A DNA stretch of 64,000 nucleotides from Roseivivax halotolerans. Lineage in GTDB: Bacteria > Pseudomonadota > Alphaproteobacteria > Rhodobacterales > Rhodobacteraceae. Position numbers and translations under genes: made by a program. The stretch covers positions 310,001-374,000 of the forward strand of contig NZ_FOXV01000001.1 of assembly GCF_900115815.1 (NCBI RefSeq), in the 5' to 3' direction. Below the pieces are notes generated by a model, which had not been told where the DNA came from, ran no database searches, and saw nothing but the letters and a program-made list of their open reading frames with translations. Of this stretch, positions 33,771 through 38,669 are shown piece after piece. How positions within the stretch are numbered: the stretch's first letter is position 1; each line of letters starts with the position of its first letter.

Positions 33771-34621
33771 GCGCGCTCGCCCTCCTCACGCTTCCGGCCT
33801 GCGCGGCGGAGCCGATCTCGGATGTGTTCCTGTCGCGCTTCACCTGGCAAAGCACCGGAGAGACCTTCGGCGGCTTCTCCGGCCTGGAGCTGTCCGATGA
33901 CGGCCGAAGCTTCGTTGCGATCAGCGACCGCGGCTCCATCGTCGCGGGCCGGATCGAGCGCACGGACGGCAAGATTTCCGGTATCACCTCCGGCGAGATC
34001 GAGCGCCTCACGACGCCCTCGGGCGGCGAGCTTGGTCAGTCCGAACAAGATGCCGAAGGACTCGCCATCAGCCCGACAGGAACCAGGGTCATCAGCTTCG
34101 AGGGCACGCCGCGGATCTGGGCTTATGGCGACAAGGGCGCAACCGAGCTGCCGCTGCCTCCGGCTTTCGGCAGTCTTCAGACAAATTCGGGGCTCGAAGC
34201 ACTCGCAATCGACGAGACGGGCGCGCTTTATACCATGCCGGAGCGCTCGGGCGGGCTCACCCAACCCTTCCCGGTCTGGCGGCTCAAGGACGGGCGCTGG
34301 TCGCAGCCCTTCGAGATCTCGCGGAGCGGCGGCTTCCTTCCGGTCGGTGCCGATTTCGGGCCGGATGGGGCGCTGTACATTCTCGAGCGCAGCTTCAGCG
34401 GTTTCGCGTTCCAGAGCCGCGTGCGCCGGTTTGAAATCGACGGCGATGCCATTGCCGCCGAACGCACGATCTTCACGTCGGATTACGGCAGCTTCGACAA
34501 CCTCGAAGGCATCGCCGCCTGGCGTGATGAGGCCGGAACGATACGCCTCACGATGATCTCGGACGACAACTTCAACATTCTGCAGCGCACCGAATTCGTG
34601 GAGATCCGCGTCGAGGAATGA
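33743..34621 (+). CDS. Esterase-like activity of phytase family protein, secreted
   Basis: A 292-residue exported beta-propeller protein. The signal peptide (LGALSALALLTLPACAAEP) contains an LPAC sequence that could serve as a lipobox. The rest shows propeller-like repeats (GGFSGLELSDDGRSFVAISD, DAEGLAISPTG, GLEALAIDETG, VGADFGPDGALYILER, FDNLEGIAAW) typical of the phytase-like esterase domain. Substrate unknown. It starts 28 nt inside the mepA coding region, which suggests coupled expression with the murein enzyme. Confidence 0.85.
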   Translation: MRLRSLGALSALALLTLPACAAEPISDVFLSRFTWQSTGETFGGFSGLELSDDGRSFVAISDRGSIVAGRIERTDGKISGITSGEIERLTTPSGGELGQSEQDAEGLAISPTGTRVISFEGTPRIWAYGDKGATELPLPPAFGSLQTNSGLEALAIDETGALYTMPERSGGLTQPFPVWRLKDGRWSQPFEISRSGGFLPVGADFGPDGALYILERSFSGFAFQSRVRRFEIDGDAIAAERTIFTSDYGSFDNLEGIAAWRDEAGTIRLTMISDDNFNILQRTEFVEIRVEE

Positions 34622-34715
34622 CTTGCGCGGCCCGCGCGGCTGGTCTACTGCGCGCGACTGTTCCGGAATGGTCCGGAGCCAAGTCCCCGCGACCTTGTCA
34701 AAACGGGAGAATTCC

Positions 34716-35345
34716 ATGACCCGCGCGCATATTCCCGGCATTCTTGCCATGGCGGCTGTTGTCGTCGCCTCCAACATCCTGGTGCAGTTCCTGCTCGGCC
34801 AATGGCTGACTTGGGGCGCTTTCACCTATCCCATCGCCTTCCTCGTCACCGACCTGATGAACCGCCTCTATGGGCCCGGACCCGCGCGCAAGGTCGTACT
34901 GGCAGGCTTCGCCGTCGGCGTTCTGTGCTCCTTCATCGGCACGCAGATCCAGGGGGAATTCGGACCGCTGGTGACGCTCCGCATCGCCATCGCATCGGGC
35001 CTCGCCTTCCTGACCGCGCAACTGCTCGACGTGTCGATATTCGACCGGTTGCGCGAGGGCCGCTGGTGGCGTGCTCCGCTTGCCTCGACGCTGGTCGGCT
35101 CCTCGGTCGATACGGCGATCTTCTTCACGGTCGCATTCTCTGGTGCGCTGACCTTCCTCGAGCCCTCCAACGACGTAAGCTGGGCCGGTGAGGCGCTGCC
35201 ACTTCTGGGCGTCGGTCCGGTCGTTCCGCTCTGGGTATCGCTCGCTGTTGCCGACTGGATGGTGAAGCTGAGCCTGGCGCTCGTTGCGCTCGTTCCGTTC
35301 CGTATGATCGTTTCCCGCGCAGTTGGGGCACAGCCCGCCACCTGA
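34716..35345 (+). CDS. Queuosine precursor transporter (YhhQ/VUT family)
   Basis: A 209-residue membrane protein with about six hydrophobic segments. FTYPIAFLVTDLMNRLYGP (about 29-47) carries the family pattern TDxxxxxYG; the charged segment with FDRLREGRWWRAPLASTLVGS (from about 109) follows. Members import queuosine precursors such as preQ0 or preQ1. The start at 34716 (MTRAHIPG) follows ACGGGAGA; the upstream extension is not hydrophobic. Downstream lies the structured RNA element, then arfB. Confidence 0.88.
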   Translation: MTRAHIPGILAMAAVVVASNILVQFLLGQWLTWGAFTYPIAFLVTDLMNRLYGPGPARKVVLAGFAVGVLCSFIGTQIQGEFGPLVTLRIAIASGLAFLTAQLLDVSIFDRLREGRWWRAPLASTLVGSSVDTAIFFTVAFSGALTFLEPSNDVSWAGEALPLLGVGPVVPLWVSLAVADWMVKLSLALVALVPFRMIVSRAVGAQPAT

Positions 35346-35425
35346 CCACAAGATTTTGTTTTGCACCCGAGAAAAGCTGTGTCAGGCTGACCTCATTGAG
35401 CAACTCAGAGAAAGGAGGTGATCCA

Positions 35426-35482
35426 GTGTCGAGAGAAGCATTGGAGAGAGGTGTCGGGACAATTCGGAGGACCCGCCCCTAG
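35426..35482 (+). CDS. Mini-ORF of 18 codons with extreme Shine-Dalgarno sequence
   Basis: GTG at 35426 to TAG at 35480-35482 would encode VSREALERGVGTIRRTRP. The ribosome-binding site is the full 16S complement just described and its last base is the first base of the start codon, so pairing of the whole stretch would place the start unusually close. The core GGAGG lies 8 nt before the GTG, which is normal. The last five codons and stop lie inside the predicted stem, so translation would unfold it. The peptide is basic with no recognised homology. Confidence 0.4.
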   Translation: MSREALERGVGTIRRTRP

Positions 35483-35554
35483 GGCAGCCCCTACAGGCGG
35501 ATGATCGTCCGAATTGGTGGAAGAGCCTAACCGGCCCCACCTCCACATTCTCGG

Positions 35555-35583
35555 GGGTCGCCCTTAGGGGCGGCCCTTTTATA
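35555..35583 (+). terminator. Rho-independent terminator before arfB
   Basis: GGGTCGCCC (35555-35563) pairs fully (one G-T) with GGGCGGCCC (35568-35576) over a TTAG loop, followed by TTTTATA. It ends 24 nt before the arfB start, so any transcript from the left must read through it to express arfB. Confidence 0.85.
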
Positions 35584-35606
35584 TTGTCCGCGGGTAGGAG
35601 GCCGAC

Positions 35607-36026
35607 ATGCTCAAGATCGGAAATCGCGCGACCATCGAGGATTGGGAGATCACCGAGCAATTCATTCGTGCCTCGGGCCCCGGCGGGCAAAACGTCAACA
35701 AGGTCTCGAGCGCGGTCGAACTTCGCTTCGAGGCCGAGCGGTCGCCGAACCTGCCCGGTCCGGTCAAGGCCCGCCTGAAACGGCTCGCGGGCCGGCGCTG
35801 GACGAAAGAGGGCGCACTCATCCTTCAGGTCGACGAGACGCGCAGCCAATCGCGCAACCGCGAGATCGCTCGCGACCGACTCGCGGAGCTGATCGGAAAG
35901 GCATTCGAGAAACCGAAGAAGCGCATTCCGACGCGACCGACGCTCGGCGCAAAGAAACGTCGCCTCAAGGCAAAGAAGGTTCACGGAGAGAAGAAAGCCC
36001 TGCGCGGCAAGGTCGATCCCGAGTAA
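35607..36026 (+). CDS. arfB: Alternative ribosome-rescue peptidyl-tRNA hydrolase ArfB
   Basis: Codon-independent release factor that frees ribosomes stalled on broken mRNA. The 139-residue protein has the catalytic GGQ at 26-28 in GPGGQNVNKVSSAVELRF and the required long, lysine/arginine-rich C-terminal tail (KKRIPTRPTLGAKKRRLKAK region) that enters the mRNA channel. AGGAGGC precedes the ATG, directly after the terminator of the structured RNA element. Convergent with the TIGR02302 gene, whose stop is 3 nt away. Confidence 0.95.
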   Translation: MLKIGNRATIEDWEITEQFIRASGPGGQNVNKVSSAVELRFEAERSPNLPGPVKARLKRLAGRRWTKEGALILQVDETRSQSRNREIARDRLAELIGKAFEKPKKRIPTRPTLGAKKRRLKAKKVHGEKKALRGKVDPE

Positions 36027-36029
36027 GCG

Positions 36030-38669
36030 TCAGAACCGCTCCAGAAGCCGCTCGAGATATTCCAGCTCTTCCTCTGGCCGCTCGCCCTCACCCGAACGCC
36101 GGCGGATCTCGTCGAGAAGCTCCCGCGCCCGGCGATAGACATCCTCGCCCTGAAGCATCTGCTCGTCCGAGCCGATCTGCCCGTTCGATCCGGCGGAGCG
36201 CCCGAGCGGATCGCGCTGCTGCCCCGGATCAGTGCCGTCGGCCATGCCCTGCTGGCCCTGCTCTCCAGGCTGTTGACCTTGCTGTTCGGCCATCGCTTCG
36301 CCGAGGTTCCGCATACCCTCGCGCAGAGCTTCCATGGCTTCGGATTGGCGATCGATGGCACCGGCAAGATCGTCCTCGCGCAGCGCATCCTCTGCGCCTT
36401 CCATCGCGCCTTCCGCACGATCGAGGGCTTCACCCGCGCGGCGACCCGCCTCTGACCCGTCGCCCGGCATGTTCTGCCGCTGGCGATTGAGCTCGCCCCG
36501 AAGCGATCGTTGCCGGTCGGCAAGACTTTCCTCGAGGCTCTGGCCGCCGCCCTGGCCTTGCTGGCCTTGTTGCTCACCCTGACCTTGGCCTTGCCCCTGA
36601 CCCTGTTGCTGGCCTTCGCCGCGGCCCTGGTTCTGCTGACCGGGCTGTTGGCCCTGACCTTGCTGCTGGCCGTCCTGACCCTGCTGGCCCTGCTGTCCTT
36701 GCCGGTTCTGGCCTGGATTGAACTGCTCCTGCAGATCCTCGAAGGCCTGATCCGACAGCTCCTGCTGTTCGCGCAGTGTCTCGCCGAGACCTTCCATCGC
36801 CTGCTGACCGGGGCTCTGCTGGCCTTGGCCCTGGCCTTCGGTGACGCGCATGTTCTCCATGAGACGCTGCAGCTCTTCCATCGCCTGCATGGCCTCGGCC
36901 ATGCGGCCTTCCTCCATCAGCTCCTGGATGCGGTCCATCATCTCCTGCAGATCGTTTTGCGTCATCTGCATCCCGTTCTGCATGTCCTGCGACGGGCTCT
37001 CACCATTTTCTTCGGCGGTGCGGCGCTGCTCCTGTGCGAGCTGGCGCATGTAATCGTCGGTTGCGCGGCGCAGCTCCTGCATGAGTTCCGCGATCTCATC
37101 CTCGGACGCGCCGTTACGCATGGCTTCGGTCAGACGCTCCTGCGCGCGCTGAAGCCGCTCGCGGGCATCGTCGAGATCGCCTTCCTCGAGGACGATGGCG
37201 AGATCCCACATCGCCGCGGCGGTCTCTGCCACTTCCTCATCGCTCATGCCGTCCTCGGCGCTGGCCTCGAGCCGGCGCAGGATCGTGCGGAAGCGCAGAT
37301 AGTGGGAGCTTTGCCGGAAAAGTCCGTCAGGCTCATGGCTGATCGCGCGCATGATCAGCGCGATGTCATCCGCGTTCTCCCGGTTCCAAAGAAGAGCCTG
37401 CCGCTCTTCGATAAGGGCCGCGGCCATTGGCTCGAAGAAGCGGCGCCCCGGCAGTGTCTGCACATTCGCTTCGGATGCCCCGACCTGGCCTGCCGCGTCG
37501 GTCACTTCGAAACTGATATTGACCGGAAGATTGGCCCAGGGATGCTGCGAGAAATTATCGATCAACGTCTCTTCGAAATCGGACCGGTCGCCCGCAACCG
37601 GCAGGGGAAGCGGCACTTCGATGGCGTCGCGCTGCTCGGGTTCGATCTCGCGCCCGTAACGACGGTCGACTTCATCGAGTGCCAGCGTCACTGTCGCGGT
37701 TCCGCCCGTCACCTCGTAATCGTCCGATGCCTCGTAGGAGAGCGATGCCTCCCCGTCATACTTCACGTCAAAGCGACCCACCTGGTCCACTTCCGGCGCG
37801 GCATCCTCGGTCACTGCGATGTCCCAGGCCCGGCCGTTCGGCCCATCGATCGCAATTCGACCGTCCGTTTCGACCGAGAAATCGCGCGCCGTCTCATCAA
37901 CGCCATCTTCCTGAGCCAGCGGGTTGCCCGAAACGGTCTCGGAGACGGAGAGAGCGCCCACCTCGCCGTACAGCCGCAGCGTTACGGAGGAGCCCTCCGG
38001 GACCGATAGTTCGGGATCGGTGATATCGTTGAGATAGATCGTCGGCAGCCGCGTATAGGCAGGCGGTTCGACCCAGCCCTCCCAACTCGGCCCGGTGGCA
38101 AGATCGGACGCCCCGCCCGGTCCGATCCCGGCGACCGACGAGACCCGCATCACCGATCCGAAGAGGAGCGCCACCGCCAGCGCCAGAAGCGCCGCATAGC
38201 GCAATGCATAAGGGTCGGCGTCCGAGACCCGCAGGTCGGGCTCAACCGCTTTCGCCTCGGCAAGCCGCGCGCGCATGCGGGCCTGGTGGGCATTCCAGAC
38301 GGCGGCACTTGCCCCATCGCCCGCGCCAATGGCCTGCCGGTCGAGCGAGGTCGTGATCGGATGGCCCGGCATGGTCGCGTCGAGCCGAATGAGCGCATCC
38401 TCGCGGGAGGGCCAGGTGAACCGGCTGACCCCGCGCCAGAGAGTCCAGCCCGCAAGACCGAGCGCAAGCACCGCCACGATCAGCACGACCGTCGCCGACA
38501 CGAAATCCTGAAGGCCCAGCATCAGCATCGCGACGACGGCAAAGACCACGGACCAAAGCGGCCAGAACGCCCTTACCGCGCGCTCCGCGACCAGCCCGGC
38601 GCGCGTCAGCGCCAGAGGACGCTTCACGCGACCAATGATGTCGTTCGGATCGATGGTTTGATCGGCCAT
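36030..38669 (-). CDS. TIGR02302 family (DUF4175) membrane protein with Gln/Gly-rich region
   Basis: An 879-residue protein found across alphaproteobacteria, function unknown. Three hydrophobic segments lie near the N-terminus (about 33-50, 57-77, 155-172), leaving a large, probably periplasmic, region. Residues about 430-640 are acidic, helical and coiled-coil-like (SHEPDGLFRQS, MQELRRATDDYMRQLAQEQR). A low-complexity Gln/Gly stretch follows (about 655-735, repeats such as GQGQQPGQQNQGRGEGQQQG), then further charged helices to the C-terminus. It is the last gene of the leftward run and follows lysA by 42 nt. Confidence 0.88.
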   Translation of the reverse strand: MADQTIDPNDIIGRVKRPLALTRAGLVAERAVRAFWPLWSVVFAVVAMLMLGLQDFVSATVVLIVAVLALGLAGWTLWRGVSRFTWPSREDALIRLDATMPGHPITTSLDRQAIGAGDGASAAVWNAHQARMRARLAEAKAVEPDLRVSDADPYALRYAALLALAVALLFGSVMRVSSVAGIGPGGASDLATGPSWEGWVEPPAYTRLPTIYLNDITDPELSVPEGSSVTLRLYGEVGALSVSETVSGNPLAQEDGVDETARDFSVETDGRIAIDGPNGRAWDIAVTEDAAPEVDQVGRFDVKYDGEASLSYEASDDYEVTGGTATVTLALDEVDRRYGREIEPEQRDAIEVPLPLPVAGDRSDFEETLIDNFSQHPWANLPVNISFEVTDAAGQVGASEANVQTLPGRRFFEPMAAALIEERQALLWNRENADDIALIMRAISHEPDGLFRQSSHYLRFRTILRRLEASAEDGMSDEEVAETAAAMWDLAIVLEEGDLDDARERLQRAQERLTEAMRNGASEDEIAELMQELRRATDDYMRQLAQEQRRTAEENGESPSQDMQNGMQMTQNDLQEMMDRIQELMEEGRMAEAMQAMEELQRLMENMRVTEGQGQGQQSPGQQAMEGLGETLREQQELSDQAFEDLQEQFNPGQNRQGQQGQQGQDGQQQGQGQQPGQQNQGRGEGQQQGQGQGQGQGEQQGQQGQGGGQSLEESLADRQRSLRGELNRQRQNMPGDGSEAGRRAGEALDRAEGAMEGAEDALREDDLAGAIDRQSEAMEALREGMRNLGEAMAEQQGQQPGEQGQQGMADGTDPGQQRDPLGRSAGSNGQIGSDEQMLQGEDVYRRARELLDEIRRRSGEGERPEEELEYLERLLERF

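Follow-up and report, generated by a model that had tools for sequence, protein, structure and literature searches.

A conserved extended Shine-Dalgarno mini-ORF RNA beside arfB in Roseivivax halotolerans, a relative of CC2171

The 64,000-nt stretch of Roseivivax halotolerans DNA analysed here (the window) contains, just upstream of the ribosome rescue gene arfB, an extended Shine-Dalgarno (SD) sequence that precedes an open reading frame (ORF) of only 18 codons, a predicted folded domain and an intrinsic terminator. This locus raises the question of why so long a complement to 16S rRNA should serve so short an ORF, and whether the RNA acts on arfB, on the ribosome or through its peptide. We find that the element is conserved and has a known relative in Rfam, the Caulobacter small RNA CC2171 (RF01867), that the idea of an arfB-linked element holds for one family, the Rhodobacteraceae, and that the reading as a translated mini-mRNA is the best supported.

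Extended Shine-Dalgarno sequence and layout of the RNA

The antisense strand of the 16S rRNA 3' end of the same genome (locus L033) reads AGAAAGGAGGTGATCCAGCCGCAGG and shares exactly 18 nt with the SD block, in agreement with an earlier note on this DNA; by arithmetic, the chance expectation for an exact 18-mer in 3.77 Mb is about 1e-4. The 14-mer core of the block, AAAGGAGGTGATCC, has two exact copies in the whole assembly, namely the block itself and the antisense of 16S rRNA, with four further sites at one mismatch, and within the window it is found at a single site even when up to two mismatches are allowed (chance mean 0.33). The predicted duplex of the extended SD with 16S rRNA has an energy of -32.8 kcal/mol, compared with -12.0 kcal/mol for a UAAGGAGGU site. 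Among 29 loci of the window's family, the block is retained within two mismatches in 28 and is exact in 21. The element is laid out as follows.

35361-35366 and 35383-35388, plus strand: putative promoter, TTGCAC and CAGGCT with a 16-nt spacer, read by eye from the upstream regions
35409-35426, plus strand: extended SD AGAAAGGAGGTGATCCAG, complementary without mismatch to 18 nt at the 16S rRNA 3' end of the same genome
35426-35482, plus strand: mini-ORF with GTG start (35426-35428), 18 codons (VSREALERGVGTIRRTRP) and TAG stop (35480-35482)
35422-35445, plus strand: predicted start-codon hairpin, UCCAGUGU (35422-35429) with GCAUUGGA (35438-35445), from the minimum-energy fold
35461-35515, plus strand: central stem, AATTCGGA (35461-35468) with TCCGAATT (35508-35515), pairing codons 12-16 with a downstream strand, from the minimum-energy fold and the swap test
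35473-35477 and 35496-35500, plus strand: middle tier of the stem, CCGCC with GGCGG, in the minimum-energy fold
35480-35493, plus strand: apical hairpin carrying the stop codon, TAGGG (35480-35484) with CCCTA (35489-35493), from the minimum-energy fold and the swap test
35526-35544, plus strand: conserved pre-terminator strand CCUAACCGGCCCCACCUCC, from an alignment of 73 relatives (A1) and from folds
35553-35585, plus strand: intrinsic terminator, an 11-bp hairpin (35553-35578) and a U-rich tail, from a terminator scan, with compensatory stem changes in A1
35607-36026, plus strand: arfB, alternative ribosome rescue factor (NF006718, 179.4 bits, cut-off 100), the linked gene in the family

The minimum-energy fold of the RNA (-89 kcal/mol, z -5.6) is equalled in none of 200 shuffles. 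Because the opposite strand also beats its own shuffles (z -3.6), the fold alone leaves the strand undecided. All three tiers of the stem inside which the 18-codon ORF was said by the earlier note to end are present in the fold, and the strong terminator followed by arfB that it described is likewise in place. The second hairpin that it placed between the central stem and the terminator is reduced in the fold to 2 bp, the notable element there being CCCACCTCC (35536-35544), whose CACCUCC (35538-35544) is identical to a portion of the 16S anti-SD and is predicted in the minimum-energy fold to pair with GGAGGUG of the SD.

A sigma-70 consensus scan of 34500-36200 returned no promoter. Read by eye, the regions upstream of 118 arfB-linked and 165 other elements contain recurring TTGAC-like and CANNCT-like blocks, with weak column frequencies, and CAAC often precedes the SD.

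Reading-frame length, stop codon and covarying stems

We collected 283 unique elements, 133 of window type, as defined by a peptide pattern, and 150 of other type. The ORF has 18 codons in 128 of the 133 window-type elements and 20-26 codons in 110 of the 150 others. The three reading frames were compared in elements thinned for similarity with no filter on ORF length. Exactly 18 codons are found in 98 of 104 arfB-linked elements, and neither of the other two frames has a single such case (0 and 0). Six arfB-linked elements deviate, with 12, 17, 20, 20, 20 and 24 codons. Of 139 elements that lack arfB, 129 have 14-31 codons, versus 26 and 33 when the other frames are read; in 30 sequences read of 49 matches from the family of a Rhizobiaceae metagenome-assembled genome (MAG), all 30 fall in this range, versus 6 and 2. 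At 27 of the 28 loci of the window's family with a recognisable SD, exactly 18 codons are encoded, with 26 at the remaining one (L030; L027 was dropped).

The stop itself is retained as a function rather than as a sequence. Among the 133 window-type elements it is TAG in 59, TGA in 55 and TAA in 19, and on a FastTree phylogeny of 110 ArfB fragments its identity switches among these three at least 36 times while always remaining a stop, a number that tree error could inflate. The peptide behaves differently: in the window's family, codons 13-18 vary at all three positions, and codons 6, 7 and 12 are nearly always TTG, GAG and ACA, as RNA pairing would demand, while at codon 2 Ser is retained and the third base varies freely. 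Taken together, the length of the ORF and its stop look to be under selection and the peptide mostly not, and translation of the mini-ORF is what this pattern of conservation suggests. A Bradyrhizobium-type group of ten loci shares a 14-aa ORF with an invariant KRCHLAGIAR; these ten end in TAG, TGA or TAA, and their sequences past the stop diverge widely. As a separate observation, a Rhodobacteraceae-like 18-codon ORF, MSKAILEIEVRKIGGNGI, occurs in L340, from a genome of the same family as that of L151 and with CCCTAACTGACCCATCTCC before its terminator. A second instance is L198, from a Pararhizobium MAG, and either horizontal transfer or misbinning could account for these occurrences.

RNAalifold on a MAFFT alignment missed the central stem, and we therefore used swap tests, in which the complementarity of strands from the same element is compared with that of strands exchanged between species (2000 permutations). 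In 100 thinned window-type elements, covariation is seen for two stems, the central one at z 10.6 and the hairpin with the stop codon at z 9.6, neither value being reached in any of the 2000 permutations, whereas codons 1-11 against the pre-terminator strand, tested in the same elements, give z 0.1. The start-codon hairpin can show little covariation, since one of its sides is the near-constant SD and start. Conservation of the extended SD and of the stem pairing in related genomes, on which the earlier note had staked its proposal, is thus found for the SD (28 of 29 loci) and for two stems.

We applied the same test to a set of 110 other elements, limited to those in which a terminator was recognised and the ORF has 14-39 codons. 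Here codons 2-7 covary with the strand before the terminator (pairing P1, z 10.4), and the P1 strands change sequence between elements, as in UCAUUGUC/GACAAUGG and AUGAGAUU/AAUCUCAU; the SD and start pair with the ORF interior (z 6.3), and codons 2-7 with the middle give z -1.7. Fragments of the 16S tail also occur inside these 110 ORFs (CTGGATC in 12, CACCTC in 6), raw counts not set against chance. The fraction of SD positions paired in predicted folds is 0.78 in 118 arfB-linked elements versus 0.54 in 131 others.

Relation to CC2171, distribution and arfB linkage

At the Rfam gathering threshold, the whole window yields two tRNAs only. In a search by E-value, RF01867 matches the RNA over its full length (model positions 1-159 of 159) with 34.1 bits, below the gathering score of 75, with E-values of 7.7e-6 and 5.7e-6 for the region and 2.3e-5 for the genome. 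Across 289 genomes of the class, the same model has matches in 61 at E <= 1e-3, 9 of them above the cut-off, and among 14 control genomes in Caulobacter alone; the earlier note's remark that it knew no described RNA family with this layout is thus not supported. Two weaker matches in the own genome were rejected, one being the antisense of 16S rRNA (L033) and the other (L032) lacking such an element.

RF01867 positions 9-29, which comprise the extended SD and the GUG-UC start block, are identical letter for letter to the window. The P1 helix of RF01867 (CAUUGUC/GACAAUG) is largely gapped in the window alignment, where other long-range pairings are predicted instead. A locus from another family, found by the window's DNA search (L029), scores 81.7 bits with RF01867 and has the same SD and GTG-TC block. 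Conversely, with a model built from A1 (R1), 48 of 64 RF01867 places outside the own family overlap an R1 place (47 of 58, over more than 100 nt, on the main count). As judged from sequence, the two share a plan of extended SD, start-TCN, mini-ORF, folded domain and terminator. The window element resembles CC2171 in the same 5' block, GAAAGGAGGUGAUCCAGUGUC, in a similar length, in the same form of terminator and in usually occupying one place per genome, and differs from it in its 18 codons, its arfB adjacency and the unaligned P1 stem.

In the literature searched, CC2171 is named as an RNA only in tables, as far as the accessible passages go: one entry in the R-scape update of Rfam 15 (PMC11701678), and the Mesorhizobium transcript MH_s33 (PMC5596092). 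Neither a function for CC2171 nor any description of an extended-SD mini-ORF layout was found in the literature searched, most subscription papers lying outside it.

A search at the DNA level with a 237-nt query from the window finds the element in 29 of 37 genomes of the family (the own genome included) and in one genome of another family, or 30 of 61 genomes overall. Of 149 family genomes, R1 reaches 139 at E <= 0.01; 120 of these are below 1e-20 by a count of the listed rows, and the weakest are terminator-only or doubtful. Across the class it reaches 83 of 289 genomes at E <= 0.01, terminator-only matches included. The pattern AAAGGAGGTGNTYCARTG is found in 108 of 149 family genomes, once in each, and GAAAGGAGGTGATCCARTGTC in at least 120 stretches of named genomes; among the matches listed, all but one are from alphaproteobacterial MAGs or genomes or from unresolved Proteobacteria/Pseudomonadota MAGs. 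That one, labelled an Acidobacteriaceae MAG (L228), has an exact extended SD before a 104-codon ORF and is of a different kind. A plasmid collection searched in distant mode gave no match. At L157, L181, L190 (Azospirillum) and L043, the extended SD precedes ORFs of 57-59 aa with secretion-signal-like N-termini and no mini-ORF.

In the window, arfB begins 28 nt after the end of the terminator hairpin. The ArfB motif lies downstream in 112 of 133 window-type elements and in 6 of 150 others, five of these six coming from the window's family and the sixth from a Rhodobacter MAG. The synteny with arfB that the earlier note proposed to check is thus a feature of the window's family. With the arfB start placed by assuming 69 nt to the GGQ motif, the gap from terminator to arfB has a median of 47 and a minimum of 14 nt (99 loci). 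Among 50 downstream proteins at loci elsewhere, no fixed Pfam family was found, the commonest occurring three times. The sequences show conserved adjacency to arfB in the window's family; at the loci elsewhere they reveal no fixed neighbour, the next gene at loci without arfB lying on the same strand 43 times and on the opposite strand 52 times (95 loci).

Proposed role and competing explanations

We consider it slightly more likely than not that the RNA is a stand-alone, translated mini-mRNA that captures 30S subunits, the window-family branch of an alphaproteobacterial group related to CC2171. From the extended SD, the selected ORF length and stop, the covarying stems, the lack of a fixed neighbour elsewhere and the arfB adjacency in the family, we infer that it would form its own transcription unit, be translated, capture 30S subunits, switch between forms, allow read-through and have a biological output. 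A dedicated promoter would give a transcript of about 180-190 nt, whose 5' end would offer the 16S tail an 18-nt duplex abutting the start codon; the folded domain behind the SD would include the mini-ORF and its stop, and the terminator would end the RNA. In the closed state suggested by the fold prediction, the SD would be paired with the anti-SD-like strand before the terminator, which a 30S subunit could displace, since the predicted 16S duplex is stronger; when a 20-nt 16S tail binds the folded RNA of the window, the predicted gain is -22.9 kcal/mol. In the form predicted for the bound RNA, the CUCC in the 3' strand would pair with UGGAG (codons 6-7) instead, and this exchange might explain the fixation of these codons. 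The ribosome would then read the short ORF, such that the RNA would both bind initiating ribosomes and be opened by them, and its most likely job would be to sense or buffer initiating subunits. As the terminator lies a median of 47 nt before arfB at the linked loci, read-through there would tie arfB to the state of the ribosome, an added output in this family of an RNA that would stand alone at most of the loci examined outside it. More tentatively, and with decidedly less confidence, we suggest a class-wide RNA that docks 30S subunits via a near-maximal SD duplex, is checked by its own strand resembling the anti-SD or 16S tail, and reads out free or initiating subunits, with read-through into arfB as the Rhodobacteraceae read-out; such an RNA would be a riboregulator of ribosome status that senses the ribosome's own RNA tail.

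Several results weigh against the mini-mRNA reading. Pairing of the SD with the 3' strand, the basis of the closed state, gives only z 2.3 (21 of 2000 permutations) and, the SD being near-constant, rests mainly on folds, and RNAalifold favoured another SD partner, just past the stop. In the 100 thinned elements, neither a candidate antiterminator, the post-stop GGGCAGCCCCTA with the terminator (z 0.5), nor a pairing P2 of codons 5-11 with CUAACC..CUCC (z 0.7) covaries. In the 110 other elements, the control pairing of codons 8 to the end with the pre-terminator strand also reaches z 5.3, and part of the P1 signal is therefore relatedness or composition. As the elements were collected by SD and start-codon patterns, both features are partly there by construction, and the fixed nucleotides at codons 6, 7 and 12 make the apparent peptide conservation partly an RNA constraint. 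The alignment of the window with RF01867 is good in the SD and terminator and poor in the middle, which is why we call the element a relative or variant of CC2171 rather than a member; the reciprocal RF01867/R1 matches are likewise carried largely by the SD and terminator, and RF01867 matches in the controls rise to 2 of 14 at E <= 0.01 and 6 of 14 at E <= 1. The strand count for the next gene at loci without arfB was made by a longest-ORF rule, with 7 of 98 loci from the window's family. Finally, ribosome profiling in Caulobacter reports non-coding RNA regions as untranslated (PMC4117421); the passages available do not name CC2171, and if it is among these regions, the report counts against translation there.

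One competing explanation is a cis-acting translated arfB leader, in which ribosomes on the mini-ORF would choose between termination at 35553-35578 and read-through, giving feedback on rescue. The fixed ORF length and stop position, the 112 of 133 window-type elements with arfB downstream, and a gap that in many loci leaves little room for another promoter would all fit such a leader. However, arfB follows only 6 of the 150 elements outside the window type, all in the window's family or the Rhodobacter MAG, neither a fixed downstream gene nor a fixed strand turned up elsewhere, and the candidate antiterminator does not covary. The attenuator proposed in the earlier note has its ORF, terminator and arfB in place and a candidate antiterminator devoid of covariation, and since the arfB link is confined to the window's family with no fixed neighbour elsewhere, attenuation of arfB is unlikely as the role of the wider group; for the window's RNA, we regard the leader as a possible but rather unlikely account. 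Translated attenuators of the trpL/rnTrpL type in Sinorhizobium meliloti, as described in part of PMC10117765, similarly combine a short ORF, a structured RNA and a terminator before a gene, whereas the window RNA has no regulatory codon run or supported antiterminator, and elsewhere in the class there is no fixed gene to attenuate. Escherichia coli arfA (PMC10107115) offers a further parallel, in that what ribosomes do on the transcript of a rescue factor governs its expression, as is proposed here; in the window, arfB is complete and the candidate control is situated upstream of it.

Alternatively, the peptide could be the product, with the extended SD simply giving high expression. Selection on frame, length and stop is what a small-protein gene would show, the ten Bradyrhizobium-type loci share an invariant peptide core, and a translated 23-aa peptide, SEP1, is reported from S. 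meliloti (PMC10117765, in the passages at hand), although the comparison with it is by description only. The peptide nevertheless differs between groups, codons 13-18 vary at every position in the window's family, and several fixed codons are kept in one synonymous form, as RNA pairing would need, so that we judge this improbable. Still less credible, in our view, is a conventional trans-acting small RNA that pairs with mRNAs and carries the ORF incidentally: the Rfam listing of its relative as a small RNA, the terminator, the promoter-like region and the lack of a fixed neighbour would suit it, yet the expected partners of an SD-like 5' end are 16S rRNA or targets rich in CCUCC, not the start sites of mRNAs, and the conserved ORF length and stop would go unexplained. 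SD sequences are common in mRNA leaders, and for that reason one has to consider that the block is simply a strong ribosome-binding site of the usual kind, with an upstream ORF that arose by chance; given the 18-nt complementarity, the class-wide matches, the stem covariation and the fixed ORF length, we attach next to no probability to it.

If the mini-mRNA reading is correct, an RNA known only as an Rfam entry in the literature searched appears to be part of a large alphaproteobacterial group of ribosome-engaging mini-mRNAs in which the length of the ORF is selected, the peptide largely is not, and the complement to 16S rRNA is very long. Caulobacter, a member of the class, is otherwise sparing with SDs, which are present in only 24.6% of its coding sequences according to the accessible part of PMC4117421. 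By sensing or buffering initiating ribosomes, such RNAs would provide a compact handle on translation capacity and, in one family, on ribosome rescue. Model species within the class (Caulobacter, Rhodobacter, Sinorhizobium) make this reading testable, possibly with existing Ribo-seq data.

Related observations from other bacteria can be set beside the element. In Staphylococcus aureus, initiation at extended SD motifs and unannotated small ORFs are reported, there as a species-wide feature of initiation and here in a single RNA (PMC13009471, in part). S. meliloti SEP1 (23 aa, isoelectric point 4.18) has the top translation efficiency among non-annotated small ORFs in the passages available of PMC10117765; of 30 rhizobial ORFs of the group, 25 encode 22, 23 or 25 aa and 12 have an isoelectric point below 5, and SEP1 is a possible member of the group, as compared by length and isoelectric point rather than by sequence. 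The terminator of the Bradyrhizobium RNA BjsR3 is said, in an accessible passage of PMC5082802, to recur in Rhizobiales and Rhodobacterales; BjsR3 is a tentative lead. In the window, the gene upstream of the RNA (34719-35345) encodes a queuosine-precursor transporter (TIGR00697, 97.9 bits, cut-off 50.95).
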